Shown: piece by piece, positions 15,721 through 55,593 of the stretch | Numbering within the stretch: the stretch's first letter is position 1 | Layout of the letters: each line of letters starts with the position of its first letter | Source of the DNA: Ectocarpus siliculosus | Taxonomy: Eukaryota; Sar; Phaeophyceae; Ectocarpales; Ectocarpaceae | Length of the DNA stretch: 63,715 nt | NCBI GenBank assembly: GCA_000310025.1 | Contig: FN648381.1 | Coordinates: forward strand, 137,637-201,351 | Direction of reading: 5' to 3' | Made by a program: the position numbers and the translations under genes | Notes under the pieces: generated by a model | Seen by the model: only the letters and a program-made list of their open reading frames with translations | Database searches by the model: none | What the model was told of the DNA's origin: nothing

Positions 15721-15725
15721 AAATT

Positions 15726-15995
15726 TAATTTTGACGCTTCCCCACAAAAATTTCGCCGTCAGAGTTTGCCCCCAAAAAAGTGGCGCAACCTCTTCACGTC
15801 AAAACTTCCTGAAATGTCAATCTTTCACGTCATTTCAACAACACGTGGATTCCCTCTATTTAATTTTGACGCTTCCTCACAAAAATTTCGCCGTCAGAGT
15901 TTGCCCCCAAAAAAGCGGCGCAACCTCTTCACGTCAAAACTTCCTGAAATGTCAATATTTTACGTCATTTCAACAACACGTGGATTCCCTCTAAT
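15726..15995. repeat. Tandem duplication, 135-bp unit, two copies
   Basis: The block beginning TAATTTTGACGCTTCC and ending GTGGATTCCCTCT is repeated head to tail at 15726 and 15861. A handful of substitutions separate the copies. Confidence 0.85.
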
Positions 15996-18417: not shown

Positions 18418-18700
18418 AATGTCGGGCAGGTTGTGGAGGGGGGTTGGGAGGCAGCCACAACCTTGGCCAGCCCTCTTGGTTGTACAAGGCTGGGTGCTGA
18501 AGGTTGGGAGGGCTGTCACAACCTTGGCCAGCCCTCCTGGTTGTACAAGGCTGGGTGCTGAAGGTTGGGAGGGCTGTCACAACCTTGGCCAGCCCTCCTG
18601 GTTGTACAAACACAGACCCAACAGGTTGGGAAGCAGCTACAACCTGAGGCCAGACCTCCTGGTGGTTAAAGCACCGAAGATACAGGTTGGGAGGCAGTTG
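18418..18700. repeat. 62-bp minisatellite, about four units
   Basis: The unit begins GGTTGGGAGG and contains ACAACCTTGGCCAGCCCTC and TTGTACAAGGCTGGGTGCTG. Two central units are nearly identical and the outer ones are diverged. Confidence 0.85.
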
Positions 18701-19650: not shown

Positions 19651-19751
19651 AGGCCATTTCTTGCGGTTCTTTTTCGCAGATTTGTTTTTCCCCCTTTCGG
19701 ACAACCCAGAAAGGGATCTACGAAAAAGATGACCCCCTTCTTACGGTGTTG
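19651..19751 (+). repeat. Detached outer piece of the inverted-repeat left arm
   Basis: Sequence from CCATTTCTTGCGGTTC to CTTACGGTGTTG is the reverse complement of 45931-46022 plus 44829-44840. It was separated from the rest of the arm (32993 onward) by the Ty3/gypsy insertion. Confidence 0.75.
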
Positions 19752-20019
19752 TGTAGGGGTATGCACGCGTGATGAAGTCTGGTTGACCCGTGAAGAAGAA
19801 CTCACTTGTTGTTACTCTTGTAGAACAGCAGCAGCAGTAGCTGTTGCCTTGGGTATCGGTAGGAATGACACCAAGGGGCACAGGATCCTCTGCACAAGCA
19901 GGGGCTACTAGATCCTGTCCCCTGCTTTTTATCCTTCCGCGGAGAGTTACATCTCTCCGCGCCTTCTAGAAGGAACCAAGCTCTTCTATGTTCCGTCTAC
20001 ACATCTGAATCCTATAACA
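19752..20019 (-). repeat. 3' LTR of the NADAR gypsy element
   Basis: The 268-bp repeat matches 32725-32992 with about six substitutions. An imperfect purine tract (CAGGGTGGGCTAG on the minus strand, 20020-20032) adjoins it. Confidence 0.9.
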
Positions 20020-20658: not shown

Positions 20659-23600
20659 TTAAAAAGGGCACTGCCGCTGTGAACTTGAAGGCACAGCGGT
20701 GGAGTAGCGAACATCAGGAAGGGCGAGCTTGACAGGGCCAGGATCGTCCAAGAAGCGGTTGACGTAGAAGTCGGACGGTAGAGGCGGTCCAGTAATCTTG
20801 CCCAACCACCAGAATCCATCGCGAGCTTTGTACCAGAAGAAGGCGCCTGCAGGTAGCGGAGTATTGGCGAAGCGACGGTCCCAAGTTGAACGAGAGACGA
20901 GCGAGTAACCCGAAGGCAAAGCTCGCTCCCCTTTGGCGCGCGCAATCTCGCGGGTGGCCGCACCAATACGCATCGCCCGATAGCGACGATTCGTTTGGCG
21001 ATGTTGATCAGGCGAACCCGTCCAGTACCGGAGAATGTGGGGCTTGGAACGCTGGAGGTCCATCTCACGTTCCCAAGAAGGACGAAGAAGACCTTTCCAA
21101 TGCGTTTGGTATAAAACAGCGATGGTGCCACCACGGCCACGAACAGACTGATGGCCACTAATGCGGTCAACCTCGAGACGTTCGACCGGAGTCGACACGT
21201 CGTCTTCCGTAACATGGTAGGGAGGAGATTTATTCGCATAGGAGTTTAGCACATACGGTGTAAGGCCGGCAGGCAGGAACCGAGGCAAGTCTTCAGTGCT
21301 ATGCGGATTAGCGCAAGGCTTGCAACGCGCAACTGACACACGGTTTTTCGAGTCCGGACCCGGCAGATCCGATGGAAGATCCAAATACAGTAACTTGGAA
21401 GCCAGAGGACAACCGTCGGGAGCGTCAGGACACGGACCCACGGCCAAGATCTTGAACGGACCAGTCCAAAGGAAAGACAACTTAACTTTGAGGACCTTGT
21501 CATCCGTGCCTGAACGAACACCTTGGCGAATGGTAGATTCGGTGTTGTACACCCAAACCCATCCACCGACGGTGTATGAGGGGACCTTGCGCAAAGCATC
21601 CGATAGAGCGGAGTTACGCCGTTCAATCCTCGAAACGGACAGGTTGTGCTGTTCGCGAACTAAATCGTAAGAACGACGTTGGCGATCAGCAGCAAGATCG
21701 CAATACTCAAGTTGATCGCGATGCAAGCTTTGGTGGCCTCGAGCATATGGATCCTCAAAAACCGTCATCGGCATGCGTGGCAGTCGGTTCATATGCACCT
21801 CGTTGGGCGCCAAACCAGTAGCGGCACTAACCGAATTGTTGTAGGCAAACTCAACGTGCGGCAAATGAACGTCCCAATTATCTTGCCTCTCATTGACGAC
21901 CATAGCCAACATCTGAGCCATTGTGTGATTTACGCGCTCCACACCCCGATTGCCGTTGGGATGGTAAGAGCTGGTAGCCACTTTGCGGATAGCCAGACGG
22001 GCGTATACAGCCTGCGACAGTTTAGAACAAAACTGAGAGCCATTATCAGACAAGAGACTCAAAGGGCAACCCCATAAAGGGATATACCGATTGACAAGTA
22101 CGTCAGCGGTGCCTTCGGCGGTGAATTCTGCAGCCGTAACCGCGTACATGTCAGCACGCCGGCTGAAACGATCAGTGAAAAGCAGAATATATGTGTTTCC
22201 GCGCGGTGTCAACGGGAGGGGACCGAAATAATCGACGCTCACCAACACACCAGGGCCCGAAGGTAGCGGAAGGCACAAAGTAGGCCATCGAGGCGTTTGA
22301 CGAGATGACTTGCGAGCTTGGCATCGCAAACAATGCCTTACCCACCACTTCGTGCAAACACTCATGCCAACCCACCAATAGAAACGTTCCAGCATGCTAA
22401 GCGTGCCAGCGGCACCGAGGTGGCAGGATGCATCAGCGTGACAGGCTTGCATGATCCACGGACGCATGAGCATGGGAACATAAATCCGAATGGGTTCGTC
22501 GTTGAGAAGACGAGCAGCACGCCCGCCAGGACGTGTGGTCGTAGACGACGGGGGCGCTGTTTGCTTGCGACCAAGCAAGACCAAACCATCATCGTCAACC
22601 TGTATCCGGTCTTTGTTAGACAGGTCACGAATCTCCGACAGAGGAGGTCGACGAGCGGACGGAAGATGATCCAGGAAATCCGAAGGGAGAGCCGAAGGCC
22701 GACCCAGAAGGATGAAACGAATAGCTGCATCACAAACAGGTTCGTTACGTTGCTCGCGAGCCCAATCAGCATGCGAGAAACGTTCGACAGACGCCCGGAA
22801 GGCTAAATCTGCCGAGGAATGTAAAGCCGCCTCGATAGAAGAGGGGGCCGATTCCTGAGGCTCCGGCTGCAATCCACCCGAAGGCAGAGTAGCAGCGGAA
22901 ACAGAAGACGAAGGCGTACGAGTGGTCGAAACCGAACGCGTCGAAGATTCCGAAGAACCGGGGGCAGCAGAAGACTGCTGGGCAGGAGCAACCGAAGTTG
23001 CAGGATGCGTCGAAGACGCAAGATCCCTTCCACGAGCCAGAGGCGTATGAAGGTCTGGGATCGAAGTGTCAGCACCAGGAGCCGAAACCAACCTGGTCAA
23101 AACGGGGGGCGCCGTCGATGCTGATTGTGCAGGCGGGGAACGTCGAAACGATCGGGGCGAAGCGGAAATCCTAGTAGGAGCAGGCGGGTCCTCGGAGAAA
23201 CCATAATCCACGGGCGGGAGGGGCGTGCCTGCCACAACCGCCGTGCGACGGCGAGTTCGCGTGGAAATCAGTTGAGTAGGGTCGAGAGTCCGTCGTGATG
23301 CTGCAGTCGGCGAGACGGCCGGCGAAGACTCGGGCTCGAGAGCCAAAATGTCCTCCACCGAAGAAAGTAAGGAGCCAGACCAATCGAGGGTCCTGCCACA
23401 CAGGCGTCGTAGCGAAGGAGACAACCCGCGGGAGTTGTTAGACGGCCAGGGTGCGATGTTCCAGACGCCAGGCGGAGACGAAAGGCCTGACGGCGAGAGA
23501 CGTGGACCATGCCGACGGAAGTCGACAAAATCATCTGTAGAGGGGGCCAGCCCACCCAAGACCGATGTCGGGGAAGTGGGGACGAGCCCACCCAAGCCAA

Positions 23601-24207
23601 CACCCACGGCGCGATGGCCAGAAGGCGTAAGGCCACAAGAACGGATGAAGAATACGCTCTCCTCATCGTCATCCGGTGTCAAGCGGTTGCGACCAGATCG
23701 GTCACATTCCGCGGCATCGATCGGAAGGCGAGAGAGGAAATCAGCGTTGCCATTTGCGGAACCCTTGCGGCACTCGAGAGTGTAATTGTAGGCGGTAAGA
23801 AATTCAAGCCAACGCTGAACGCGGGCATTGTTCTCCCCCACCTTGGCAAAATGCTCAAGAGATTTGTGGTCGGTAAAAATGCGCAATTTCGTGCCCCACA
23901 AATAACCGCGAAGTCGTTTGATGCACCATACGATGCTACCCGCCTCGAGGTCGAGGGGAGTCCAATGACTTTCGGAGTCCAAAGTAGCTCGGCTGATGAA
24001 AACGATGGGCCAGATGGAGCCATCCGGCTGTTCTTGTTCGAGAGTCCCGCCGAACCCATCGCGACTAGCATCACAGTAGAGGCGAAAAGGTCGCGAGCCG
24101 TCCGTAACGGCCAACTCAGACAGCAGGACGCGAACAGCTTGCTCCATGGCAGGGGTGAAGGCAAACGTCGCCTGCTTCTTGAGAAGAGTGGTCAGAGGTC
24201 GAATTCA
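20659..24207 (-). pseudogene. Pol C-terminal half: RNase H, integrase, chromodomain
   Basis: An in-frame TGA (24205-24207) right after the reverse transcriptase separates this from the upstream Pol; reading on gives IRPLTTLLKKQATFAF. RNase H shows YCDASRDGFGGTL, the Glu of LEAGSIVW and FTDHKSLEHF. Integrase has a zinc region (CHADASCHLG then CLRCQ), core Asp in VSVDYFGPL, Asp in LLSDNGSQF and Glu in GVERVNHTM. A chromodomain follows near 21030-21225 (VERLEVDRI, YQTHWKGLLRPSWE). A further C-terminal block reads GFWWLGKITG and VNRFLDDPGPVKLAL, perhaps an SH3/Tudor-like fold. A Ser/Pro-rich spacer of about 250 residues between RNase H and integrase is unusual. All catalytic residues are present; the only visible lesion is the TGA. 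Confidence 0.85.
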
Positions 24208-27066
24208 CGTAGCCATGTTGGGAAGGAACTTGCGGTAGTAGCTGAGGCCGCCGAGAAGAGAGTGAAGTTGTTTAACATCCTTTGGCATGGGCATTTTGGT
24301 GAGGGCCGCAACCTTGGCCCCGTTAGGCCGAACACCGTCAGGGGAGATGGTGTGGCCGATGAAATCCGCTTCGGTAGCGCCAATGGTGGCCTTCGGTGGG
24401 GTGAGTTTCAAGTTGTGTGTGCGCAAGCGTTCAAACAGAGCGCGCATGGTATCAACATGAGAAGCAGGGTTGTCGTCGAAAACGATCAAATCATCCAAGT
24501 ACGATGCAACACCGTGGAGATTTTTGATGACTTCGTTGACCACCTTGCAAAACCACCCAGGGGCAGCAGAACTGCCTTGAGGCATCTTCAACCACTCAAA
24601 AAGCCCGGAAGACGTGACGAATGCCGTCAAAGGGATTGTATCACGGTGAACCGTGATTTGGTGGAATGAAGACTTCATGTCGAAGAGGGAATAAATTCGC
24701 CCTTTCAACAACTTGTCCAAAGTATCATCAACTCGAGGAATCGGAAGCTGGCTCAAAGCACAAAGCTTGTTGAGCTTGCGATAGTTGACAGTGATGCGAA
24801 CACCGCCAGACTTCTTTGGTATGACTACCAAAGGACTCGAGTAGGGCGAGGTCGAATGTTGGATCAGACCAGCCGCAAGATATTTATCAAGGATCGCGTC
24901 AACTTGTTTCGCCACCGGGGGGTTAACGCGGTATGGACGAGATGTGACGGGTGCACTGCCTGGAGGAACTGTAAGCTTGAAAGGAAAAAGCGAACAAGAT
25001 CCAAAGTCGGTGGGGGAACTCGAGAAGACATCATGATAGTCGCACAGGACGTTACCAAGCTGAGTGATGACATCCGGAGTCCAACCCGGACCATGGAGAT
25101 CAAAAGAAATCTCACGGAGATGGCAGGGGAGCTTATCCCACACGCGGGAAAAACTCTGACGTTGTTCAAGCGTCAACCGCTCGAGAAGAGCAGGCGGAGG
25201 CGATGAAAGAGAAGCACTGGCAGAACCAGGGTCCTCTTGGCCGCGCGGCGACGGCGTGGGTCGCTCATGCAAATTACACACGAAGGGGTCATCAATGCGA
25301 CGTTTGGCAGACGAATCAATGCCACCTGTCGAAACAGGACCCGGAACCCAGTTGCCCGAAGCAATGGTGGGATCTTGAGCCGCAGACTGAAGACCATCGC
25401 TCAAACTGTGGCGAGACACAGCACTGAGAGGCATGCGAAGAAGGGGAGCCGAAGCTGTACCCAGAATGCAGCCTGGTTCGAGAGAAGAGATACCCGCGAG
25501 CGGGAGTCTTTGGCAACCATTTTGCACAAAATGTTCCTCGGAAGAAAACACAGCACATTGTGGAAGCATATCCACGAGATAGTTACCCACGAGGGCTGGA
25601 GAGCCATCGCTACGCACCAAATTAACCGGAACAAGGCTATGTTCGGGGTGAAGTTGGACGGAGTGTTTCCCAGCGTAGCGAAGTTGGTAGTTACCATCTG
25701 TGGAAGACAAATCGTGAGCAAATGCAGTGGCACCGCAAGTGCTATGCTGAGCGAGGGTAAGCTCACCAAAAACACGGTCACCAGGGCGTTTCGCACGCAA
25801 AGTGCGGGAAGAGCGGTCGCTAAACCGCATCCAACTGTCTCTCCCAAGGAGCACGTCATGATGCATAACACCATCGGGAACAACGTACGCCCAAACAGTG
25901 AGAGAGGAAGTAGGAAGGCGCTTGCGAAGAAACAGCACGCTCAAACGGACAATAGTCGAAGTTTGAAGCGGAGCAGATTCGCCGAAACCTCCCCAACAGC
26001 GAGGTTGGGTTTGTTTCTCAGACAACGACGAAGCGGCCGAAGCAGCTTTCATGGATTCCCACGCAGATGCACTAATAAAAGACTGCGGGGAACCCGTGTC
26101 TAAAAGAGCAACACATCCAAACTGAACAGAAGCTGAACCGCTGTGAGTGAAGATTTGGGTGGTGAAAGAGTCATCATCGATGGTAACAACACCATCAACC
26201 AAATCCAGACCTTGCTCAGGAAGCAAAGAAGAGGAAGAGGATGGCGGGGTGCACCCGGAAGACACGGCCCAAACAGCGATGTCATGATCCGATGGAACAT
26301 TCGCAGCGTATTGTGAAAACGACGCGAATCGTTCAGTCGACGGAGGGCTGGAGGCCATCCGAAGACGCTGGTGTGTAGAAGGGCTAGCTTCATAGACCGC
26401 GTTATGTTGAGACGACGTCGAAACGTGGTCGTTGGGGGGCAGCAAACGAGAGCGGCGGGGCATTGCATCGCAAAAGACTGCGTACTCGTTGAAGGGCATT
26501 GCCCAACAAATTGAGGCCACGCCATCGAGAGGTGGATAGAGCGTCAGGATCATCGGCTTGAAGGCCAATGCCCCAAATACGGTCGTAGGGACTAGCTTCG
26601 GCAAGGATTTTGTCGCCAGATCCGAGAAGATGCTCGCGCAACTCGGAGTTTTGACTATATTTTGCGTAAGAGCCAGTGAGCACAATATTTTCGCGCTCGT
26701 GTTCCCAAAGAGATGGGTCGAAACCACGGACACCGCGGCCAAACTTCTTGTGTAAGGCAGGATCGGACACTCGCATGATGTTTTGTAAAGCGCAATGGTC
26801 TTCGAAAAGACGAGCTTTTTCCGCAGCGAAAAACTGCTCAGCACACGAGTATACCACTCCATCGACCACAAAAGTCGACGGGGTCCACTGGGAAAAAGGA
26901 GAGGGAGGCTGCCAAAAGAAGACCATGTCAGAAGTACAATACTCGTTAGACGGGTCGAAGACAGCGGGAACTGCAGGAGTCGAAACACCTGGAGTGCGGT
27001 CAGCCGAAGCTGATGTTGCAGCCGAAGCTGATGTAGTCGAAGCGGAGGCAGCCGAAATGCCCGCAT
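24205..27066 (-). CDS. Pol N-terminal half: aspartic protease and reverse transcriptase
   Basis: The frame is open from 27066, but its first part overlaps the NADAR frame and reads as out-of-frame sequence. The real Pol start is probably a frameshift near 26410-26480. Protease shows VALLDTGSPQSFISASAW (near 26070-26110) and later HHDVLLGRDSW. Reverse transcriptase runs from about 25000 to 24230. It includes the thumb/finger order typical of Ty3/gypsy: SPYSSPLVVIPKKSGGVR, ITVNYRKLNK, SLFDMKSSFHQI, LKMPQGSSAAPGWF, the catalytic SYLDDLIVF and SYYRKFLPN. The frame ends at the TGA at 24205. Apart from that stop it looks intact. Confidence 0.88.
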   Translation of the reverse strand: MRAFRLPPLRLHQLRLQHQLRLTALQVFRLLQFPLSSTRLTSIVLLTWSSFGSLPLLFPSGPRRLLWSMEWYTRVLSSFSLRKKLVFSKTIALYKTSCECPILPYTRSLAAVSVVSTHLFGNTSAKILCSLALTQNIVKTPSCASIFSDLATKSLPKLVPTTVFGALAFKPMILTLYPPLDGVASICWAMPFNEYAVFCDAMPRRSRLLPPNDHVSTSSQHNAVYEASPSTHQRLRMASSPPSTERFASFSQYAANVPSDHDIAVWAVSSGCTPPSSSSSLLPEQGLDLVDGVVTIDDDSFTTQIFTHSGSASVQFGCVALLDTGSPQSFISASAWESMKAASAASSLSEKQTQPRCWGGFGESAPLQTSTIVRLSVLFLRKRLPTSSLTVWAYVVPDGVMHHDVLLGRDSWMRFSDRSSRTLRAKRPGDRVFGELTLAQHSTCGATAFAHDLSSTDGNYQLRYAGKHSVQLHPEHSLVPVNLVRSDGSPALVGNYLVDMLPQCAVFSSEEHFVQNGCQRLPLAGISSLEPGCILGTASAPLLRMPLSAVSRHSLSDGLQSAAQDPTIASGNWVPGPVSTGGIDSSAKRRIDDPFVCNLHERPTPSPRGQEDPGSASASLSSPPPALLERLTLEQRQSFSRVWDKLPCHLREISFDLHGPGWTPDVITQLGNVLCDYHDVFSSSPTDFGSCSLFPFKLTVPPGSAPVTSRPYRVNPPVAKQVDAILDKYLAAGLIQHSTSPYSSPLVVIPKKSGGVRITVNYRKLNKLCALSQLPIPRVDDTLDKLLKGRIYSLFDMKSSFHQITVHRDTIPLTAFVTSSGLFEWLKMPQGSSAAPGWFCKVVNEVIKNLHGVASYLDDLIVFDDNPASHVDTMRALFERLRTHNLKLTPPKATIGATEADFIGHTISPDGVRPNGAKVAALTKMPMPKDVKQLHSLLGGLSYYRKFLPNMAT

Positions 27067-28252
27067 TGTAATTTACGGCGTGAACGTCCATGGGGACGGT
27101 CTCGGGTATCTCAGAGACCGGCGAAGAATCGACGGGAGCCGAATTGTTCGCAATAATTGGGCCAGCTACATCACGCTGGGTGCGCCCCAATTCTAAACCT
27201 GAAGAAACGCCTCGTAAGGTGTCATTCAACAGGTTGCTTTCGCTAGGAACGGCCGCCAAGGCCGGGTCGGTTAAAGAACCAAACCGGGCGTGGTGCTCCT
27301 GGCCATTCCTCCGTGACAAGGTACGCGAGACCACCGGCTCTTCGGAGGTCACTCCGGGAGGGTCCTCCCGAAGCGGTGGTGTCAACACTGTCGACGTCGG
27401 TCGCAGCGGCCTGGTATTGGGCGCCGTGGGGCGAGCGTGCGTCGGAAGGGATGGAGCGTCCGAAGACGATCCATGGTCGAAATATCTCGTGGCGGAATCT
27501 GATGATGTTCGGCGGTCAGGACCAAGAGAACAACGCGATTCGAAGCCAGGCGAATTTGACCCTGTAACTTGCCGGTCGGAACCAGTCAAGTTAGCTACCG
27601 GTGCAACAATCGAGGGCGAACCCTCAACGGAAGCGAGCACAGACGAGTTGAGCGTATCCGAAGATTCACCCGAGGTAACCAATTCAGGCGATTCCTCTTC
27701 AATCGTCCAAAGCGCATGGCTACGGCCGGTCTGATCTGCAGACGACGGGGGGAGCGAACGAGCGGTGCCCGACAAACGAGCGGTACTCGATGGCCCCGAA
27801 GGTCCTACGGTTCTGTTCCCGCACCTCAAGACAGCACTCGCGCCAGACTGGTTAATTTCTGACGGAGCGCCAGTCCGAAGAGGCAGAGACGCAGAGGTGG
27901 CAGATGATAAGTGCGATGTAGAAGGTGGGACGAGAGCATATGTCTGGATACCGACCTGATCGACACTGGGAGAAACAACGGATACCGAAGTATGGTTGTT
28001 ATTGTGCGGCACCGAAGTACCAGAAGGGATAACATTCACCGAAGTGTGGTTATCGTTGCGTAGGACCGAAGTGCTAGAGGCAACAGTGTGTGACGGCGCG
28101 ACAGATACCGAAGTATTGTCGTTGTTGCATAAAACCGAAGTATTAGGGGCAACAAGCGTGACACACGAGCGTCTTGTGAAGAACGAGACGAGGTCCCCGA
28201 AGATGCTGAAGGCGGTCCGGGGGAAGTAGGCGAACCACCACCGATGAGTCAT
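26402..28252 (-). CDS. Ser/Thr-rich spacer plus NADAR (YbiA/DUF1768) domain
   Basis: The start ATG overlaps the Gag stop as ATGA (28249-28252). Residues 1-440 are low-complexity Ser/Thr/Pro-rich, with three diverged repeats of NHTSVSV-type sequence. Residues 443-594 (26471-26926) match the NADAR fold throughout: FFWQPPSPFSQW, YSCAEQFFAAEKARLF, LHKKFGRGVRGFD, YAKYSQNSELREHLL, EASPYDRIWGIGL and WRGLNLLGNAL. Known NADAR proteins cleave N-glycosidic bonds in riboflavin intermediates, and some remove ADP-ribose from guanosine in DNA. Its role in a retroelement is unknown; countering host or NAD-dependent defence is inference. The domain looks full length and undamaged. Pol follows in another frame. 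Confidence 0.88.
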   Translation of the reverse strand: MTHRWWFAYFPRTAFSIFGDLVSFFTRRSCVTLVAPNTSVLCNNDNTSVSVAPSHTVASSTSVLRNDNHTSVNVIPSGTSVPHNNNHTSVSVVSPSVDQVGIQTYALVPPSTSHLSSATSASLPLRTGAPSEINQSGASAVLRCGNRTVGPSGPSSTARLSGTARSLPPSSADQTGRSHALWTIEEESPELVTSGESSDTLNSSVLASVEGSPSIVAPVANLTGSDRQVTGSNSPGFESRCSLGPDRRTSSDSATRYFDHGSSSDAPSLPTHARPTAPNTRPLRPTSTVLTPPLREDPPGVTSEEPVVSRTLSRRNGQEHHARFGSLTDPALAAVPSESNLLNDTLRGVSSGLELGRTQRDVAGPIIANNSAPVDSSPVSEIPETVPMDVHAVNYNAGISAASASTTSASAATSASADRTPGVSTPAVPAVFDPSNEYCTSDMVFFWQPPSPFSQWTPSTFVVDGVVYSCAEQFFAAEKARLFEDHCALQNIMRVSDPALHKKFGRGVRGFDPSLWEHERENIVLTGSYAKYSQNSELREHLLGSGDKILAEASPYDRIWGIGLQADDPDALSTSRWRGLNLLGNALQRVRSLLRCNAPPLSFAAPQRPRFDVVST

Positions 28253-30273
28253 CCGCTGCGAGAACGACCACCATTTTGGAAGTTGCCAGGTTGGCGGGCA
28301 TTGTGATTGGTCGAAACCATGATGCCAGACGAAGGACTGGTGTGTGCATGTGTTTGTGGTTGATAGAGGGACAGAGCACCAGTGTGGTTGGTGTTGATCG
28401 AAGGGTGTTGCTGAGGGTGAGAGTTACCCGCAGAATTTCCTGGGGCATACCCACTGTTGTGCGATTGTGTCTGATGAGTGTGAGGGGAACTACCACCGTC
28501 GGAACGGCGATTCCCGGCGTGGTTTCGACGCTGAGAGGACGAAGAGGAAGAGCGCTGGTGGCGTCTACCCTGATTGTTTTGGCGGTTGTCCGCACTTTTT
28601 CGGCGGAAAGACCGCATACGGCCTTGCCAACGTCTAAAAGCAGCAGAATCGTCATTGAGGAGACCCAACTCGGGGTTCAACAACCCACTAGAATTCGTGA
28701 ACGGTGCAACGCATTGCTGCATGGAATGGTCTTCACCCGAGCAGTTCAGACAGCGATTCCTGTTTTCGCGGAAGGCTTGCGAACGAGCCTCTTGTGTCAA
28801 CAAAGGAGTCCACAAAAAAGGATCCTCCGTGTTGCGAAAGCTAGAAGTGAGAGCGTATACATCAGACCAATCGGCTTGCGAAGCAGGCCAAGAATTATAG
28901 TTGCGTGTGAAAGGGTCAGCATCGTGCGATTGTACCGGCAAACCTACAGGGTTCTGAGCTGAACCTGGTGCCCACTGGCCCGAAGGCGCGGGGGCGCGGT
29001 GTTGGGACCGCCGAGGCTGCGAGGACCCACGCGTCGAAGACAACGAAAAATATGATGAACCCCCGATAGCTGGAGTTTTATTTGTCGCTAGAGGCCCGAA
29101 CGCCTCCCACATATCCGCAATCGACGCAAAGGGAGTGACGGCCGTGGCCAGAGCACCCGGGTACAAAATCGGAGACAAACTCGGAAATTGCTTGCAGACC
29201 GAATGCCACACTATTTCTAGAACCATGGATACGCTAGGGGCCAAAGTACGCTCAGAGCCAGTCACAGACGAAACCAACAAACGAAAAGCACGAAGGTAAT
29301 CCGCGAAAGAAGTACCATCTGCTACTCCAAATTGTTGAAGCCTCAAAAACGACTCTTGACGGTCACCGACATCAAATTGCTCCGCAAGATGACTCAACAG
29401 CAACTGAAAAGCTTCTGGTCCGGTGGCGCCGCAGTCCAAGCTTCTCTTCACCTGCTGAAAGTAATCAGCGATGGAAAGGACAAGATCGGCAGTAGAGGGC
29501 TTGTCAATGGTGATCGCACCCGAAAGTTTCTTTTCGAGAGGCCGTTCCCATCCAGGCACGTAATCAGTACTGTCCAACCCTTCGCTTTGGTCATCACACA
29601 GCAACAATATGTCGGACAAGGCCGTTCGTGTTGTGCGGATGAGCTGTTGGTAGCCGTCCCCAGGCAACAAAGTTGAAGGGAAGGGCATGGTAGCGACATT
29701 TCCAACTTTTTTCAAGTTCAGAGTGATGTACGCCCGTTGGACAGTAACTACGTGAGCCTTGCGAACTGCCGAAGCAGCCGCATCTACTGTGGTTTGACGA
29801 GCATGTGCAATGTTGGAAGAACGTGGCAAGACACTATCATCCGAAACGACAGGGGGTGCAGCAGCTGCAACCGAAGGAGCAGCAGGCGGAACACGATCCC
29901 AAGACGGTACAACATGATGAACATCTTGTACGGGCACAAAAGTCGAAGGGGGGGTGGGGTTTGAGAACCCGGGGTTGTGTGCGATTCCTGAGCCTACAGC
30001 ATAATCAGCGGTAGAAAAAACAGGAGGTGCAACAGTTTCCGAAGAAACGGGGGGGGGCGAAGCCTGTGGCATGTTCGAAAACGCAACACGAGTTTCCGAA
30101 GAAACGGGGGGGGCCGAAGCCGGAAGGTTCGAAAACGCAAAACGAGTTTCCGAAGAAACGGGGGGGGCCGAAGCCGGAGGAACAAAATCATCACGCAAAA
30201 AGGAACGAGCACCCGAAATCGCGTCCATAAGAGACGGAACTACTTGCCTTTGGCGGCCCGACTTGCGGGACAA
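28249..30273 (-). CDS. Gag-like protein with CCHC zinc knuckle
   Basis: The first codon of the open frame is TTG; the first ATG is at MDAISGARS about 17 codons in, and the frame is open further upstream, so the true start is uncertain. The N-terminus has three tandem copies of a PPVSSET peptide. The middle (LSIADYFQQVKRSLDCGATG, FLRLQQFGVADGTSFADYLR) resembles the capsid region of gypsy Gags in its alpha-helical Leu pattern. A zinc knuckle CLNCSGEDHSMQQC (C-x2-C-x4-H-x4-C) lies near residue 510, followed by a basic Arg/Ser/His-rich tail. It ends at the TGA that overlaps the NADAR ORF start. Confidence 0.8.
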   Translation of the reverse strand: MSRKSGRQRQVVPSLMDAISGARSFLRDDFVPPASAPPVSSETRFAFSNLPASAPPVSSETRVAFSNMPQASPPPVSSETVAPPVFSTADYAVGSGIAHNPGFSNPTPPSTFVPVQDVHHVVPSWDRVPPAAPSVAAAAPPVVSDDSVLPRSSNIAHARQTTVDAAASAVRKAHVVTVQRAYITLNLKKVGNVATMPFPSTLLPGDGYQQLIRTTRTALSDILLLCDDQSEGLDSTDYVPGWERPLEKKLSGAITIDKPSTADLVLSIADYFQQVKRSLDCGATGPEAFQLLLSHLAEQFDVGDRQESFLRLQQFGVADGTSFADYLRAFRLLVSSVTGSERTLAPSVSMVLEIVWHSVCKQFPSLSPILYPGALATAVTPFASIADMWEAFGPLATNKTPAIGGSSYFSLSSTRGSSQPRRSQHRAPAPSGQWAPGSAQNPVGLPVQSHDADPFTRNYNSWPASQADWSDVYALTSSFRNTEDPFLWTPLLTQEARSQAFRENRNRCLNCSGEDHSMQQCVAPFTNSSGLLNPELGLLNDDSAAFRRWQGRMRSFRRKSADNRQNNQGRRHQRSSSSSSQRRNHAGNRRSDGGSSPHTHQTQSHNSGYAPGNSAGNSHPQQHPSINTNHTGALSLYQPQTHAHTSPSSGIMVSTNHNARQPGNFQNGGRSRSG
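30040..30185 (-). repeat. Tandem repeat in Gag N-terminus
   Basis: A unit of about 57 bp containing TTTCCGAAGAAACGGGGGGG (plus strand) occurs three times and encodes the PPVSSET peptide repeats. The G7-G8 runs inside it are likely slippage hot spots. Confidence 0.75.
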
Positions 30274-30906
30274 GCTGGTGTCCGAGCCCGACCCGGTCCC
30301 ACTCTGTTCTTGGAGCCACGAGCGCCATCCCCGCCACCCTTGGCCACCTTTCTCTCCCGGCTACCACCCACCGAAGAGGACGAAGGCGCCGGGGGTCGAC
30401 GCGATGCTCCGGCCGAGCTCCAGCCCGACTCCTCGCCCGAGCTACCAGGACCACTCTCCCGACTCGGTTGCGCCTGCTTGACACGACCCGGCGCCGGCTG
30501 CTGGAACACATAGGAAGCCTCTAAAGGCGGACCGCTGCAGCCAGGGTACACCACCGGAGCAGTGGCACGGGCGTTGGCCGTCCGCATCCCAGCGAGGAAA
30601 CGGCCGGCCAGATCCCGAAGATCCGGACGGGAGGCGTTAGCCACATCCACCGCCTCCTGTATGGTGGCGACCGCCGGCAACGCGATGGCCACTTCCGTGG
30701 CCAAGTCCGGAAGTTGCAGCCGCGGCCGAAGCCGTGGCCGAAGCCGGTGGTACTGCCGAAGCAGGGGTGGCGGCGGAAGCCGAGGGCGCCGCCGAAGCAG
30801 CGGTGGTGGCCGACGCCGAGGGTGCCGCCGAAGCAGCGGTGGTGGCCGAAGCCGAGGGTGCCGCCGAAGCAGCGGTGGTGGCCGAAGCCGAGGGGGGTAG
30901 GACCAT
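30240..30906 (-). CDS. Ala/Ser-rich upstream ORF region with 12-residue repeats
   Basis: A frame starting at 30906 encodes SATTAASAAPSA about three and a half times, from a 36-bp DNA repeat at 30770-30895. After a shift, a second frame encodes LPDLATEVAIALPAVATIQE and a Gly/Ser/Arg-rich tail ending at 30240, overlapping the Gag frame. This looks like the leader of the same polyprotein with one or two frameshifts. Function unknown. Confidence 0.4.
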
Positions 30907-32722: not shown

Positions 32723-32724
32723 AG

Positions 32725-32992
32725 TGTAGAGGTATGCACGCGTGATGAAGTCTGGTTGACCCGTGAAGAAGAACTCACTTGTTGTTACTCTTGTAGAACA
32801 GCAGCAGCAGTAGCTGTTGCCTTGGGTATCGGTAGGAATGACACCAAGGAGCACAGGATCCTCTGCACAAGCAGGGGCTACTAGATCCTGTCCCCTGCTT
32901 TTTATCCTTCCGCGGAGAGTTACACCCTTCCGCACCTTCTAGAAGGAACCAAGCTCTTCTATGTTCCGTCTACACATCTGAATCCTATAACA
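32725..32992 (-). repeat. 5' LTR of the NADAR gypsy element
   Basis: The 268-bp repeat has a TGTA/AACA boundary. Its outer end is followed by the GTTG target duplication. Confidence 0.9.
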
Positions 32993-33932
32993 GTTGGTCG
33001 ATCCTTTTTCACCGACCAAAAAAAAAGCATACTCTGCAACGGCTGCTGTCACACATACATGGACCTTCCCACCGAAATGGTTTTTCGGTGATATCTCCTC
33101 ACAGAGTGAAGCAGCGCCTACTGTAAAGCTATCCCTCGCGAGCTGTGTGTATGGTCCGTCTTGGGTGGCGGCTGACAAAAACCACAAGGCGATGGGAGGC
33201 ACGGGAATGGAGGTGCCGAGAGTCGACAGCACGCTGAAAAAATGCCCACCGCGCCAGCAACCATTTCGTTTTGCTCTTGTGCCCCTGTCAAAACTTTGGT
33301 TTACCGGTACTCCCTCGCCACCCACGCTAGCAACAGCGATGACAAAGGTATGCGCCACGAGCTGTGTGTATGGTCCGTCTTGTGTGGTGGCTGATACAGA
33401 CCAGGAGGCTATAGGACGCTCAGAAATTGTGAGCGTGAGGGTGGTGGACAAGCGGGAAAAATGATCCGCCGCATCTTCAAGCAACTTTTTTCGCTCTATT
33501 GCCCGTGTCGCAACTTTGGTTTGCCAGTACTCCCTCGCCACCCACTCAAGCAACAGCGATGATAAAGGCATGCGCCACGAGCTGTGCGTATGGTTCGTCT
33601 TGTATGATGATTGATACAGAACAGGAGGCTATAGGACGCCCAAAAGTTGGGTTCGCAAGGTTGACAGTACACGAAAAATGACCCACCGCTGCTGCGTCCA
33701 GGCTCTGTCGGTTTGTTTGCCTCTTGTTTGCCGCACACATCGGGTTGTCCACGTGGTCCAGCCCACTGAAAAAACATTGGCTACCGCCGGTGCCACCGAC
33801 TCTGTACCCCAGCAACATGACACAACTCGTGTGACCGCCGTTAGAGTTTGCGGTGGGCCGTCGAGAGATTCAAGTTTCTAGGTACGAGTGATGTGGTTGT
33901 GACCAAAAAAAGACAACAGTTTTGGACAGCCT
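32993..33932 (+). repeat. Left arm of a 0.94-kb inverted repeat
   Basis: The arm is the near-identical reverse complement of 43893-44840. It contains two or three internal diverged copies of a 195-bp unit with CGAGCTGTGTGTATGGTCCG and GATACAGACCAGGAGGCTAT. Both strands hold partly open frames (for example TQDGPYTQLVAHTF repeats on the minus strand); neither resembles a known protein. Confidence 0.85.
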
Positions 33933-33939
33933 CCACTTG

Positions 33940-36235
33940 TTCTGAAGCTTTAGCTTCAGTTTCATATTTCAATATCCGTGGGTGGAACTTTTATTCGCAT
34001 AGCCCACCCCTTGCCCGACCCGGTCTCAAATGTTGATCTCGAGCTACAGTGCACATGTCGTGGCGCCCCAAGTATGGTTCGGTAGTCAATCGCAAACCAT
34101 GACCCCTCCCCGAGTTTCAGCAGCTTCCACTTCCCGTGGCCGACACGACTCGGCCTTGACTGTTCCTTGTCTGTTTCGCCATGGAAACGGCCGGTTGAAC
34201 AGCGAAAGAGGGTCCTGCGTGCTGAATTGCTTCAGACAAGGTTGGAGGCTATCGTGTCTGTCGCTTTGGGCTGCACGCGTCGCCGTAGTAGGCGATGCGC
34301 GTCACTTACTTTGTCGCCTGTTGTGTCGTTATGCATGAAAAGCTACAGCAGCACAACAGTTGAGACAGACAACAACAGGCCCTTCTCCAACTCCGTGGTG
34401 CAGTGGGTGGTTTTCTCTCTTGCTGCATGTGCATGGGTGGTATGCATCGTATTAGTCTAAGCGGCATATGCATGGGTGGCATACATCGAATAAGGGTGTT
34501 GATGCTTTTCGACTGCTGCGTAGTAAGTCGTAACTTGAGCGATAAGGTAGATGGCAGCACAATCTTATATTTACAACAGAAAGCGAGGAGTGGCAACCAA
34601 CCGTCTGCTGCTCTGTGCAACGGTGCACATCTATCGTGGACGGACTAGTTCGTCCGTGTAGTCATGTTTTTTGTTCTCACTTCGTCACAGAGGAAAGTCC
34701 GCTAGTATATAGTTCCAACTCGGCGACTTGTGGTTGTGGTGTTTGTTGTTGCTGAGTCCGCTTCGGATACCGCCGTTCGGTAAAGATGTCTGACAGCCTG
34801 CGGTTGACCAAAGGGACGAGAGTGAGTGAGTGTCTTCTCGAGAGTAAATGCCTGTCTTCTCTCCGCTCTCTTCTTTTAGTCTACCTGTCTGTCTCTCTCT
34901 CGCCTTTCGCCGGTGGGGTCCCAACAATATCGAACTACGTCAACTGCAGTGGTTCCGCATCTTGCTGAGTAAGATAAGAGACTACCCGTGCACCGGGCTG
35001 CTGCATGAGAGGCGATGTGCGCTACCTGTTTTATGTCAAGCAATGGACTTGGGGCCCTACCTAATGCTGGACATGCAGTGCTATGTGACATGTTCCAGCG
35101 GCCCAGAGCGAGCGACGACCACGGCGGGTTTTCTATGCTTCTTTTGCCTCCTCCCTCAAGCCTGTTGCGCCTGGCTCACGTGTCTTTGATCTTTTCTTTT
35201 TTCATGCTTTGTTTGTTGGGGTCCCCCAGCCACCCCCGCCCACCATAATTTTTTGTTGGGAGGGGTGTTTACTTGCCATGTTCATGACTGGGCCCCGGAC
35301 GTTTTACTCGCACCCCGTCCATTCCACCTTTGTCAACACACCACCACATCCTATTGTACCATGCCCAATGACACGTCCAAGGCCTGGGGAATTTTGAAGC
35401 TTTTTTTTAGCTTCAGTCTCATCGTTCGAGTTTGAACGGCTTCCGCCTCCTGTGGCCGGCAAGAGTCGGCCTTGACTGTTCCTTGCCTGTTTCACCATGG
35501 AATCGGCCGGTTGAACAGCGAAAAAGGGTCCTGCGTGCTGCGCGCCACAATTTGTTTTTTTTTGTATTTGTTCTTGAGTGACCATGGTAGTAGTACACAT
35601 GCGGCTGCTGCTGCGGTTTCTGCTGTTTATGGTCGGAATGTGCTGCAATGGTCGTACGGTTATCGTAGTCAAGTTTGACAACAGTCTACTCGTTCGTATA
35701 GCGGTAGCGGTGCGCATCTATCGCGACGGCAAGCGCATTGAGATATTAGTTCGTCCGTCGTGCTTCTAGTCTACACAGACAGATAGTGGTGTTCTTCTTT
35801 GTTGCCACTTCATACCAGAAAAGAAAGAAAGTCTCCACCAACTTACAGTTCCCAAGCTCTAGCTTGGGTCTCAGTCGATCAAAAGTCTTTTTTTTCCGTC
35901 TGTGGAGCTTTCAGTAGCATAGCGGACCCCTTGCCCGACCGGGTCGAAAAGGCCGATCTCAGCCCACGCTGCGAACCTCCGAGAACTACCAGCAGTTCTG
36001 GGTAGCTGAGACGATTTCAAGACCTCTCACAGTCGTTTGAGCAGCTATCGCTTGCTGTGGGGCGATAACCAGTTTCTCCGTCGACAAGAAGATCTGCGTT
36101 ACATCGTCACATCGGAACGACCAGATTGGTTGACTTGTCGTTGAGGGTCCTCTTTTAATAGATCTTTTTGTATAAGAGTCGTCTTCATCACCTGCAACCC
36201 TGCAACAACAAGTGCAACGGCCGTTCGTCACACAA
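33940..36235. repeat. Dispersed repeat family, plus-strand copies
   Basis: The stretch is a mosaic of blocks found elsewhere. Block a (33945-34230, with GCATAGCCCACCCCTTGCCC) recurs inverted at 62770-63040. Block b (34720-35130, with GTCTACCTSTCTSTCTCTCT and GGCTGCTGCATG) recurs at 41930-42290 and inverted at 61530-61930. Block c (35560-35800) recurs inverted three times at 62010-62830. I see no recognisable transposon protein. A short poly-pyrimidine tract precedes block b. Confidence 0.6.
35632..35769 (+). CDS. Conserved 45-codon mini-ORF in a dispersed repeat
   Basis: The peptide begins MVGMCCNGRTVIVVKFDNS and continues LLVRIAVAVRIYRDGKRIE, ending at a TAG. Three inverted relatives lie in the 61.9-62.9 kb array. 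Differences are often conservative (V/I, K/R, F/L, D/E), which hints at past coding constraint. The frame is open upstream too. The family is unknown. Confidence 0.3.
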   Translation, partial: VGMCCNGRTVIVVKFDNSLLVRIAVAVRIYRDGKRIEILVRPSCF

Positions 36236-37085
36236 TGAGTACCTTGGCACCGAGTTGGTTTTTCGGTGATATCTCCGCACAGAGCGAAGCATCAGCAACT
36301 GTAAAGCTATCCCCCGCGAGCTGGGTGCTTGGTCCGCCTTGTGTGGCGGCTGATCGAGACCACAGGGCAGTGGGAGGCACGGCAACTGAGGTGGCGAGAG
36401 TCAACAGCACCTTGAAAAACCCCACCGCGCCAACAACCAGCTTTTTTTGCTCTTTTTTGCCCATGCCGCAACTTTGGTTCATGGATGCTCCCTCGCCACA
36501 CACTGAAACAACAGCGATGACAAAGGTATCTGCCACGAGCTATGTGTATGGCCCGTCTTGTGTGGTGGTTGATACAGACCAGGAGGCTGACGGGCGGTCA
36601 GAGGTTGTGAGCGCGAGAGTGGTGGACAAGCGGGAAAAATGACCCGCCGCGTCTCCAAGCATATTTTTTGTTCTTTTTCCCCGTGTTGCAACTTTGGTTC
36701 ATCGGTGCTCCCTCGTCACACACCGAAGAAACAGCGATGACAAAGGTATCCGCCATGAGTTGTGCGTCTGATTCGTCTTGTGTGGTGATTGATACAGACC
36801 AGGACGCTATAGGTTGCCCAGAAGTTGGGTTCGCAAAAGTTGACTGTGCACCAAAAAGACCCACCGCTGCTGCGTCCAGGCTCTTTCGGCTCGTTTGCCG
36901 CTTGTTTGCCGCACACATCGGGTTGTCCACCTGGTCAGCCGGATGACAACATTACGTCTATCGCCGAGGCTACTGACTCCGTACCAGTCACGTGACACGA
37001 CTCGTGCGAATACCGTTAGAGTTTGCGGGGATCATCCGTCGAGATGTTCAAGTTTGTGGGCAAGTGTCATGTGTTGTGATAGAAA
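36236..37085 (+). repeat. Diverged third copy of the inverted-repeat family
   Basis: The block order matches 33060-33932 (CCACCGAAATGG-like start, CACACATCGGGTTGTCCAC near the end) with many substitutions. The 195-bp internal unit is visible three times. Peptides such as YGPSCVVVDTDQEA recur. Confidence 0.7.
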
Positions 37086-39515: not shown

Positions 39516-39544
39516 AGTACGCCCCCCCCCCTCTCCACTCCCCC

Positions 39545-39740
39545 CGATGTTTGCCATCGGGGTTGGGTTTTCGTCGCTTGGCAACGACGTTGTAAAACAA
39601 GCCGCCCCCCCCGGTGTTTGCCATCGGGGTTTGGGTTTTCGTCGCTTGGCAACGACGTTGTAAAACAAGCCCCCCACTCGGTGTTTGCCATCGGGATTGG
39701 GTTTTCGTCGCTTGGCAACGACGTTGTAAAAGAAGCCAAT
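39545..39740 (+). repeat. LINE 3' tail: 65-bp tandem hairpin repeats
   Basis: Three units contain GTTTGCCATCGGG and TTTTCGTCGCTTGGCAACGA, then CGTTGTAAAA. Inside each, CGTCG and CGACG can pair across an 8-base loop, and TTTT/AAAA extends the stem. A related element end at 40150-40214 runs straight into the gap. These probably form the 3' end recognised by the LINE. Confidence 0.65.
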
Positions 39741-54864: not shown

Positions 54865-55068
54865 ATGTCTATCTTTTCCGAGACTTGGGACAAATTTATA
54901 CTACTATTGTTATTCTGTGCCATATATATATTTAGCACAGGACCAGTAGCCACGGTGGTTGGTTGTATCCAGTGGAAACAACCTATTTTTGAAGTGTTTG
55001 GGGAAACACTCGCGAGGAGAGTTGAATTATACCACCGCTGTCCCAAGATCTTATTTTTTTATGAATAG
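54865..55068 (+). CDS. Small membrane-protein ORF after pol
   Basis: The ATG lies 28 bases beyond the pol stop and encodes 67 residues. After MSIFSETWDK comes a single hydrophobic stretch (FILLLLFCAIYIFSTGPVAT) long enough to span a membrane, then a short charged tail. Its place matches that of an env or third ORF in some LTR elements, but it is far too short to be an envelope. A random ORF is possible. Confidence 0.35.
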   Translation: MSIFSETWDKFILLLLFCAIYIFSTGPVATVVGCIQWKQPIFEVFGETLARRVELYHRCPKILFFYE

Positions 55069-55071
55069 ATA

Positions 55072-55307
55072 AACTTGCCAGAGGGTCACCTCATTACAAG
55101 TTCATCCCATCAATATCTTATTTTTGATGATTAGATAAACTTGCCAGAGGGTCACCTCATTACAAGTTCATCCCCCATCAATACCTTATTTTTTTATGAT
55201 GAAAAGACAGACTCGCCGGAGGGTCACCTCATTACGAGTCTATCTCTCAAAAGATTTTAATTATGAGGAATAGACAAACTTGCCAGAGGGTCACCTCATT
55301 ACAAGTT
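55072..55307 (+). promoter_or_regulatory. Four tandem RNA hairpins in the 3' untranslated region
   Basis: Four units of about 65-72 bp contain hairpins at 55072-55102, 55138-55168, 55210-55240 and 55277-55307. Units 1, 2 and 4 have outer stem AACTTG/CAAGTT. Unit 3 has GACTCG/CGAGTC, two compensated base-pair changes. The loop CCAGAGGGTCACCTCATTA holds a second stem, GAGG/CCTC around GTCA, present in all four. Compensatory change implies selection for RNA structure. Packaging, primer or stability roles are inference. Confidence 0.8.
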
Positions 55308-55593
55308 TATCCCTCATCAACCCCACAGCATTATCCTGCGAAATATTTTAGTACACTAGCTGTCATCATGATAGCCCAGTACCCACAACTTTTTTCTAGA
55401 CTATACTAGTATGGACCACATCTATCACTACTCCGTCTGAAGACTCCGTGTTTTTTAACACGCGTTGTATGATAATCAGGCCGAGTTGATGGATGTACCA
55501 GGTAGGTTAACTCCAATACATGTGTCTCCATGAGCCACTCATGTCTATGACCGCCAAAAGCACATCTTTAGCACAGAGGAACTTGTGGCGCAT

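Follow-up and report, generated by a model that had tools for sequence, protein, structure and literature searches.

What does a NADAR domain do in the polyprotein of a retrotransposon, and where did the element obtain it? Both questions are raised by a 63,715-nucleotide stretch of Ectocarpus siliculosus DNA (contig FN648381.1), hereafter the window, which holds on its minus strand a 13.2 kb Ty3/gypsy element with long terminal repeats (LTRs). An earlier note, written from the letters of this stretch, had pointed to a complete NADAR domain in the element and had suggested that it might counter an ADP-ribosylation defence.

The NADAR domain in the window and across the genome

A search with the Pfam NADAR profile (PF08719) matched residues 445-595 of a 616-residue open reading frame (ORF) over the full length of the profile (1-163 of 163; E 7.2e-45; 153.6 bits against a cut-off of 35.1), which bears out the claim of a complete domain. 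The boundaries given in the earlier note, 26471-26926, were nearly exact, if not identical to those set by Pfam (Table 1). It was also right that the domain is free of internal stops and lies between Gag and protease, with a Gag ORF holding a CCHC knuckle before it and a DTGS motif, which we take to mark the aspartic protease, after it. Pol of this copy is indeed broken, as had been stated: the NADAR frame differs from that of protease and reverse transcriptase (RT), and a stop codon lies in frame between RT and RNase H.

This reading would have been undone by a one-off insertion through chance or by an artefact of annotation, an origin that now has next to no probability, given how regularly the domain recurs. 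In the 189 Mb genome, all 150 scored profile matches (the best 150 of 230 candidates) lay above the cut-off. A search with the window's own NADAR gave the best 150 of 256 candidates, and merging the profile matches with 12 places hand-picked from this second search resulted in at least 158 distinct NADAR places. Among the 115 RT places scored (of 581 candidates), 104 are preceded by NADAR at no more than 4 kb and on the same strand, with a median gap of 1184 bases. All of the 20 ten-kb copies contained NADAR, RT and integrase, with NADAR at the same place in each; a Gag match preceded it in at least 17 of them, and a CCHC match was present in 17. In other copies, e.g. L021, L022 and L033, a single open frame covers NADAR and RT, which makes NADAR the first of the known Pol domains. 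An overlap of Gag and Pol as a conserved trait was rejected, since the ATGA overlap of the window recurred in L009 alone among the copies with an upstream ORF listed.

The element NADAR also occurs together with RT in proteins from sources in ENA, e.g. P0137 (126 member sequences) and P0138, and the lineage is therefore wider than this assembly; seven of the eight best protein matches are proteins of Ectocarpus sp. CCAP 1310/34 (58-91% identity over the aligned part). Almost certainly, brown algae host a large Ty3/gypsy lineage with NADAR in its Pol, and the window element is a broken member of it. The domains of this Pol run NADAR, protease, RT, RNase H, integrase and perhaps a chromodomain.

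Two further NADAR matches, G000:C3:3913787-3914242 and C489:435177-435536, lie inside open frames reported as 10887 and 6365 residues long. These frames far exceed the length of the element and are possibly masked stretches read without stops.

Active site, selection and proposed role

We compared 40 copies of the element (the window copy and 39 loci, giving 35 distinct proteins) with an oomycete NADAR. Its structure, PDB chain 8bau, is presumably that of the P. nicotianae protein of PMC11543638, an assignment which fits the residue numbering. Loci L022 and L031 are the same place, and L031 was left out of the residue, stop and substitution counts and of the NADAR tree and was kept in the RT tree. 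The positions with roles in ADP-ribose binding or catalysis, according to passages of PMC11543638, are retained almost throughout: E43 in 40/40 copies, K50 in 39/40, R93 in 38/40, E125 in 40/40, D130 in 39/40 and W133 in 40/40, the exceptions being spread over L042, L029, L030 and L048. The same passages describe a glutamate at the E125 position, as opposed to aspartate or histidine, together with E43 and K50, as the mark of the YbiA subfamily, and the element domains carry this combination (E125 and E43 in all copies, K50 in 39/40). They differ from the NADAR antitoxins linked to DarT1, for which aspartate instead of glutamate and a neighbouring DarT gene are expected; a DarT profile had 0 matches in this genome, with one control responding. 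In PMC11125620, guanosine-ADP-ribose was a substrate in vitro for all four E. coli NADAR subtypes tested, including YbiA, and thymidine-ADP-ribose for none of them. Judging by these residues, the element NADAR is probably an active hydrolase, and it may well fold and work like the oomycete and YbiA domains.

Is the domain maintained by selection? We estimated the ratio of nonsynonymous to synonymous substitution rates (dN/dS) in a set that omits L029 and L030, whose frames are locally shifted, as well as the duplicate L031; the pairs do not count as independent, and synonymous sites are saturated in most of the comparisons that span subfamilies. Median dN/dS of NADAR was 0.147 at dS 0.05-0.15 (32 pairs), 0.228 at 0.15-0.4 (8 pairs) and 0.171 at 0.8-1.3 (8 pairs). 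For the protease, the medians were 0.257 (10 pairs) and 0.173 (9 pairs) in the first two bins, with no pairs at 0.8-1.3, and 0.216 at 1.3-2 (44 pairs); for RT, they were 0.163 (35 pairs) and 0.158 (2 pairs), again with none at 0.8-1.3. In-domain stops among near-full-length matches were found in 3/39 copies for NADAR, 0/31 for protease and 3/34 for RT. NADAR is under purifying selection together with the rest of Pol, as far as this check across copies, suggested in the earlier note, shows. NADAR and RT distances are correlated (Mantel r 0.976, n=31 copies, with 0/2000 permutations as high), and the RT tree, judged by eye, contains the same subfamilies; most simply, the element acquired NADAR once and has since handed it down along with the rest of its sequence.

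How might such an enzyme serve the element? From what is known of LTR elements, NADAR made as part of Pol would be packaged with RT and integrase. It could then cut the N-glycosidic bond by which ADP-ribose is attached to guanine, or a similar adduct, and would thereby keep element RNA, cDNA or the DNA at the insertion site free of ADP-ribose adducts, which might arise from host transferases or as by-products of repair. We give close to an even chance to a Pol-borne ADP-ribose hydrolase that aids replication as the best explanation overall, and we tentatively place its action on nucleic-acid adducts. Dinatale et al. suggest that NADAR processes RNA intermediates (PMC12477816), and NADARs in the polyproteins of animal RNA viruses are argued to target macromolecular adducts (PMC9503650).

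Several observations weigh against this proposal. At dS <0.05, dN/dS was higher for NADAR (0.503, 64 pairs) than for protease (0.327, 50 pairs) or RT (0.260, 62 pairs), and in the deepest bin (dS 1.3-2) RT was much more constrained, with a median of 0.035 (11 pairs) against 0.094 for the one NADAR pair; for these reasons, some relaxation of NADAR is possible. According to PMC11125620, the in vitro cleavage of the adduct by YbiA and by phage NADARs was not matched by protection of cells from DarT1, so that cellular targets may differ. Searches for host enzymes were run exon by exon, a procedure which split genes may escape. Next to the absence of DarT matches, the KptA profile (PF01885) had 0 matches in this genome while its controls responded, though introns may hide a gene; with neither of the two found, no partner or substrate was identified in this genome. 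The PARP profile gave four short matches here, with control genomes silent, and the macrodomain profile one short match. The ART profile (PF01129) gave 0 matches and was silent in the controls too, and is hence uninformative.

Of the interpretation in the earlier note, the part that stands is a genuine YbiA-type NADAR with a conserved active site as a regular component of the family. The function that it proposed, to counter an ADP-ribosylation defence, is plausible for the element NADAR, with 0 DarT matches and short PARP and macrodomain matches to set beside it.

Two other functions have to be considered besides the removal of nucleic-acid adducts. The domain might act on small molecules, clearing cyclic or linear ADP-ribose danger signals or other N-glycosides. 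YbiA has been tied to riboflavin synthesis, and passages of PMC9503650 propose low-molecular-weight ADP-ribose derivatives as targets of phage NADARs and note activity on riboflavin-pathway intermediates; however, the same source argues for macromolecular adducts in the case of RNA-virus polyproteins, and the element NADAR likewise sits in a polymerase polyprotein, so that we regard a small-molecule target as rather unlikely. Alternatively, NADAR could be a binding module that holds Pol at ADP-ribosylated chromatin or at broken DNA and steers integration without catalysis. This would fit the chromatin readers that Ectocarpus Gypsy lineages bear on Pol according to passages of PMC12477816, and the weak chromo match of the window element. 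It is improbable in light of the invariant E43 and E125 positions in 40/40 copies and of the location of NADAR at the end of Pol opposite to integrase. That a retrotransposon lineage keeps an apparently active ADP-ribose hydrolase in Pol suggests an effect of ADP-ribosylation, be it of nucleic acids or of small signals, on retrotransposition in brown algae.

Cellular relatives and origin of the domain

A profile search among proteins (best 120 of 6810) revealed stand-alone NADAR proteins in Ectocarpus sp. 13 (P0015), Pylaiella littoralis (P0020), E. fasciculatus (P0024) and Scytosiphon promiscuus (P0049); together with P0025, from an EukProt source, which we counted among them, they make up five brown-algal cellular NADARs. 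The genome studied here has such a gene as well, L168, in four coding pieces at C24:2125206-2127066 on the minus strand (fetched locus G000:C24:2125150-2127120). It encodes a putative protein with a cysteine-rich, zinc-finger-like N-terminus followed by NADAR, and the gaps inside the domain are probable introns. Three of its coding pieces are 83, 90 and 95% identical to P0015, and the fourth, a poorer match, 62%; compared with P0024, the pieces are 72, 80, 96 and 70% identical. These identities and the matches to Ectocarpus sp. CCAP 1310/34 proteins place the host of the element at or close to Ectocarpus among brown algae.

In a tree of 99 rows, whose bootstrap is not fully settled, 30 element or element-like rows and the five brown-algal cellular NADARs form one clade that contains neither bacterial nor viral rows (support 95/93). 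A second quick tree of 100 rows, built with more bacteria and leaving aside long branches, viral rows and P0140, recovered the same clade (SH-aLRT, a likelihood-based branch test, 95). The element-like rows P0009, P0010, P0022 and P0034, like many of the bacterial rows, are short metagenome proteins that received their labels only from similarity or source. A motif ahead of the domain, D-x3-[E/T]-Y, is common to 18/18 element protein rows and 5/5 brown-algal rows and occurs in 0/207 others with at least 12 upstream residues; it was picked after viewing the sequences, and the count leaves aside P0003, P0007, P0008, P0011, P0034, P0133 and P0140 in addition to rows with short upstream sequence. 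Within this genome, 37/40 copies have the motif, the exceptions being L025, L047 and L048. By sequence comparison, then, the element NADAR has its nearest relatives, among those found, in the cellular NADARs of brown algae, including the one of this genome.

The earlier note had looked to a NADAR tree for the donor, and the tree answers as far as the nearest kin. Both trees place the cellular clade within the element rows (96/82 and 83/74 in the 99-row tree, 87 in the 100-row tree), an arrangement that points to domestication, though an approximately unbiased (AU) test did not reject a single clade of element rows (log-likelihood lower by 19.2, p 0.3). It is conceivable, if somewhat doubtful, that the brown-algal cellular gene is a domesticated copy of the Pol domain, that is, an element enzyme turned host gene. 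The zinc-finger-like stretch was considered and rejected as a mark of direction: its pattern is found only in L168, P0015, P0020 and P0049 and was unmatched in the cellular P0024 and P0025, in the 40 element loci L009-L048 and in the window.

Could a bacterium instead have given the domain straight to the element, without involvement of the host gene? Such a transfer is suggested in passages of PMC12477816, where a blastp search outside Ectocarpus is said to have given almost only bacteria, and in our own comparison NADARs of Planctomycetota and Myxococcota reach 55-58% identity. Yet none of the 39 bacterial rows (13 of 39 matched genome loci and 26 protein rows labelled bacterial) falls inside the clade of element and brown-algal sequences. 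This common clade and the shared upstream motif make a direct gift from bacteria to the element less likely than an exchange with the host gene, and we consider it distinctly improbable. A viral donor was rejected too: of 192 viral stretches encoding a relative, 80 were kept, and of the 17 viral rows in the tree none is in the element clade. The Chrysoparadoxa protein P0064 clusters with a metagenome row, away from brown algae, in the 99-row tree.

The existence of a close cellular relative speaks against bacteria having supplied the element separately, and makes the direction of host-element gene exchange testable. Should domestication be true, host and retrotransposon would have exchanged an ADP-ribose hydrolase.

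The protein search also brought up more distant sequences. P0131 of the limpet Patella caerulea is a 958-residue protein with four NADAR-matching stretches (45% identity to the element domain); P0132 of Patella vulgata matches as well (43%), and the pair looks like an animal gene expansion. P0143, from an ENA source (1501 residues), has NADAR at 942-1091; at E 0.01, Pfam matched nothing else in it.

Element architecture and comparison with known systems

The features of the window copy are listed in Table 1. Ty3/gypsy elements (Metaviridae) have the domain order protease, RT, RNase H and integrase, and the window element has both this order and LTRs with a target duplication, GTTG, read at 19748-19751 and 32993-32996 on the outer sides of the two LTRs.

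Table 1. Parts of the NADAR-bearing Ty3/gypsy element, in window coordinates.
Feature	Position	Strand	Evidence or remark
3' LTR	19752..20019	-	TG...CA ends; 269-nt alignment to 32724-32992, 97.77% identity
Chromodomain-like stretch 3' of integrase	21022..21174	-	E 0.0093, 16.3 bits, under Pfam cut-off 25.1
Integrase core rve	21958..22257	-	Pfam, E 2.4e-9
Integrase_H2C2	22303..22479	-	Pfam, E 2.8e-12
RNase H-like RT_RNaseH	23788..24096	-	Pfam, E 5.2e-29
Reverse transcriptase RVT_1	24346..24822	-	Pfam, E 3.4e-25
Aspartic protease motif DTGS (presumed)	26089..26100	-	motif
NADAR-holding ORF, 616 aa	26402..28252	-	stretch ahead of NADAR without Pfam match
NADAR domain (PF08719), YbiA type	26468..26920	-	Pfam and PDB matches, active-site residues
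Gag ORF, 674 aa	28249..30273	-	without Pfam match; ATGA overlap with next ORF at its end
CCHC zinc knuckle of Gag	28711..28752	-	motif
5' LTR	32725..32992	-	LTR-LTR alignment

A tandem repeat of 18/36 bases (30718-30894) precedes the Gag ORF in the 5' part of the element. Directly outside the 5' LTR, diverged repeat units with a spacing of about 220 bases occur at 33063-36936 in two groups about 3 kb apart. The flanking DNA has tandem arrays at 18442-18697, 15723-15993, 39540-39737 and 55044-55313, with periods of 61, 135, 67 and 67, respectively.

The combination of NADAR and Gypsy in Ectocarpus is already published: in passages of PMC12477816, Dinatale et al. 2025 describe one Gypsy lineage of Ectocarpus, e.g. 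Gypsy-12_Ec32, whose Pol has NADAR at its N-terminus. Our literature search recognised, among its best-ranked matches, no other paper on NADAR in retrotransposons. As far as the passages of PMC12477816 tell, the kinship of element and host NADARs, the residue-by-residue check and the selection estimates are new. By description, Gypsy-12_Ec32 and the window element agree in the kind of host, the domain and its N-terminal place in Pol; the former is described as having a C-terminal chromodomain, and the window element has a weak match to one, below the Pfam cut-off. Where these passages suggest that the Gypsy NADAR was transferred from bacteria, we find cellular brown-algal genes to be closer. 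A stress-induced Ectocarpus NADAR protein, Esi0017_0056, has been described with a proposed proteobacterial transfer in passages of PMC7922944.

Among the structures, the oomycete NADAR 8bau shares all six binding or catalytic positions, with glutamate at the E125 position, but is a stand-alone cellular protein, distant and on a long branch in the 99-row tree. E. coli YbiA (PDB 2b3w) matches in sequence (E 1e-7) and shares the subfamily glutamate, and is a stand-alone bacterial enzyme. Oyster Tx1 LINEs, according to passages of PMC12477816, likewise are retrotransposons with NADAR, located in ORF1, but they are non-LTR elements with a divergent domain. In RNA viruses, NADARs and macrodomains are parts of polyproteins (passages of PMC9503650); as in the brown-algal element, a domain related to ADP-ribose is there built into a replication polyprotein, albeit one that serves another replication strategy.

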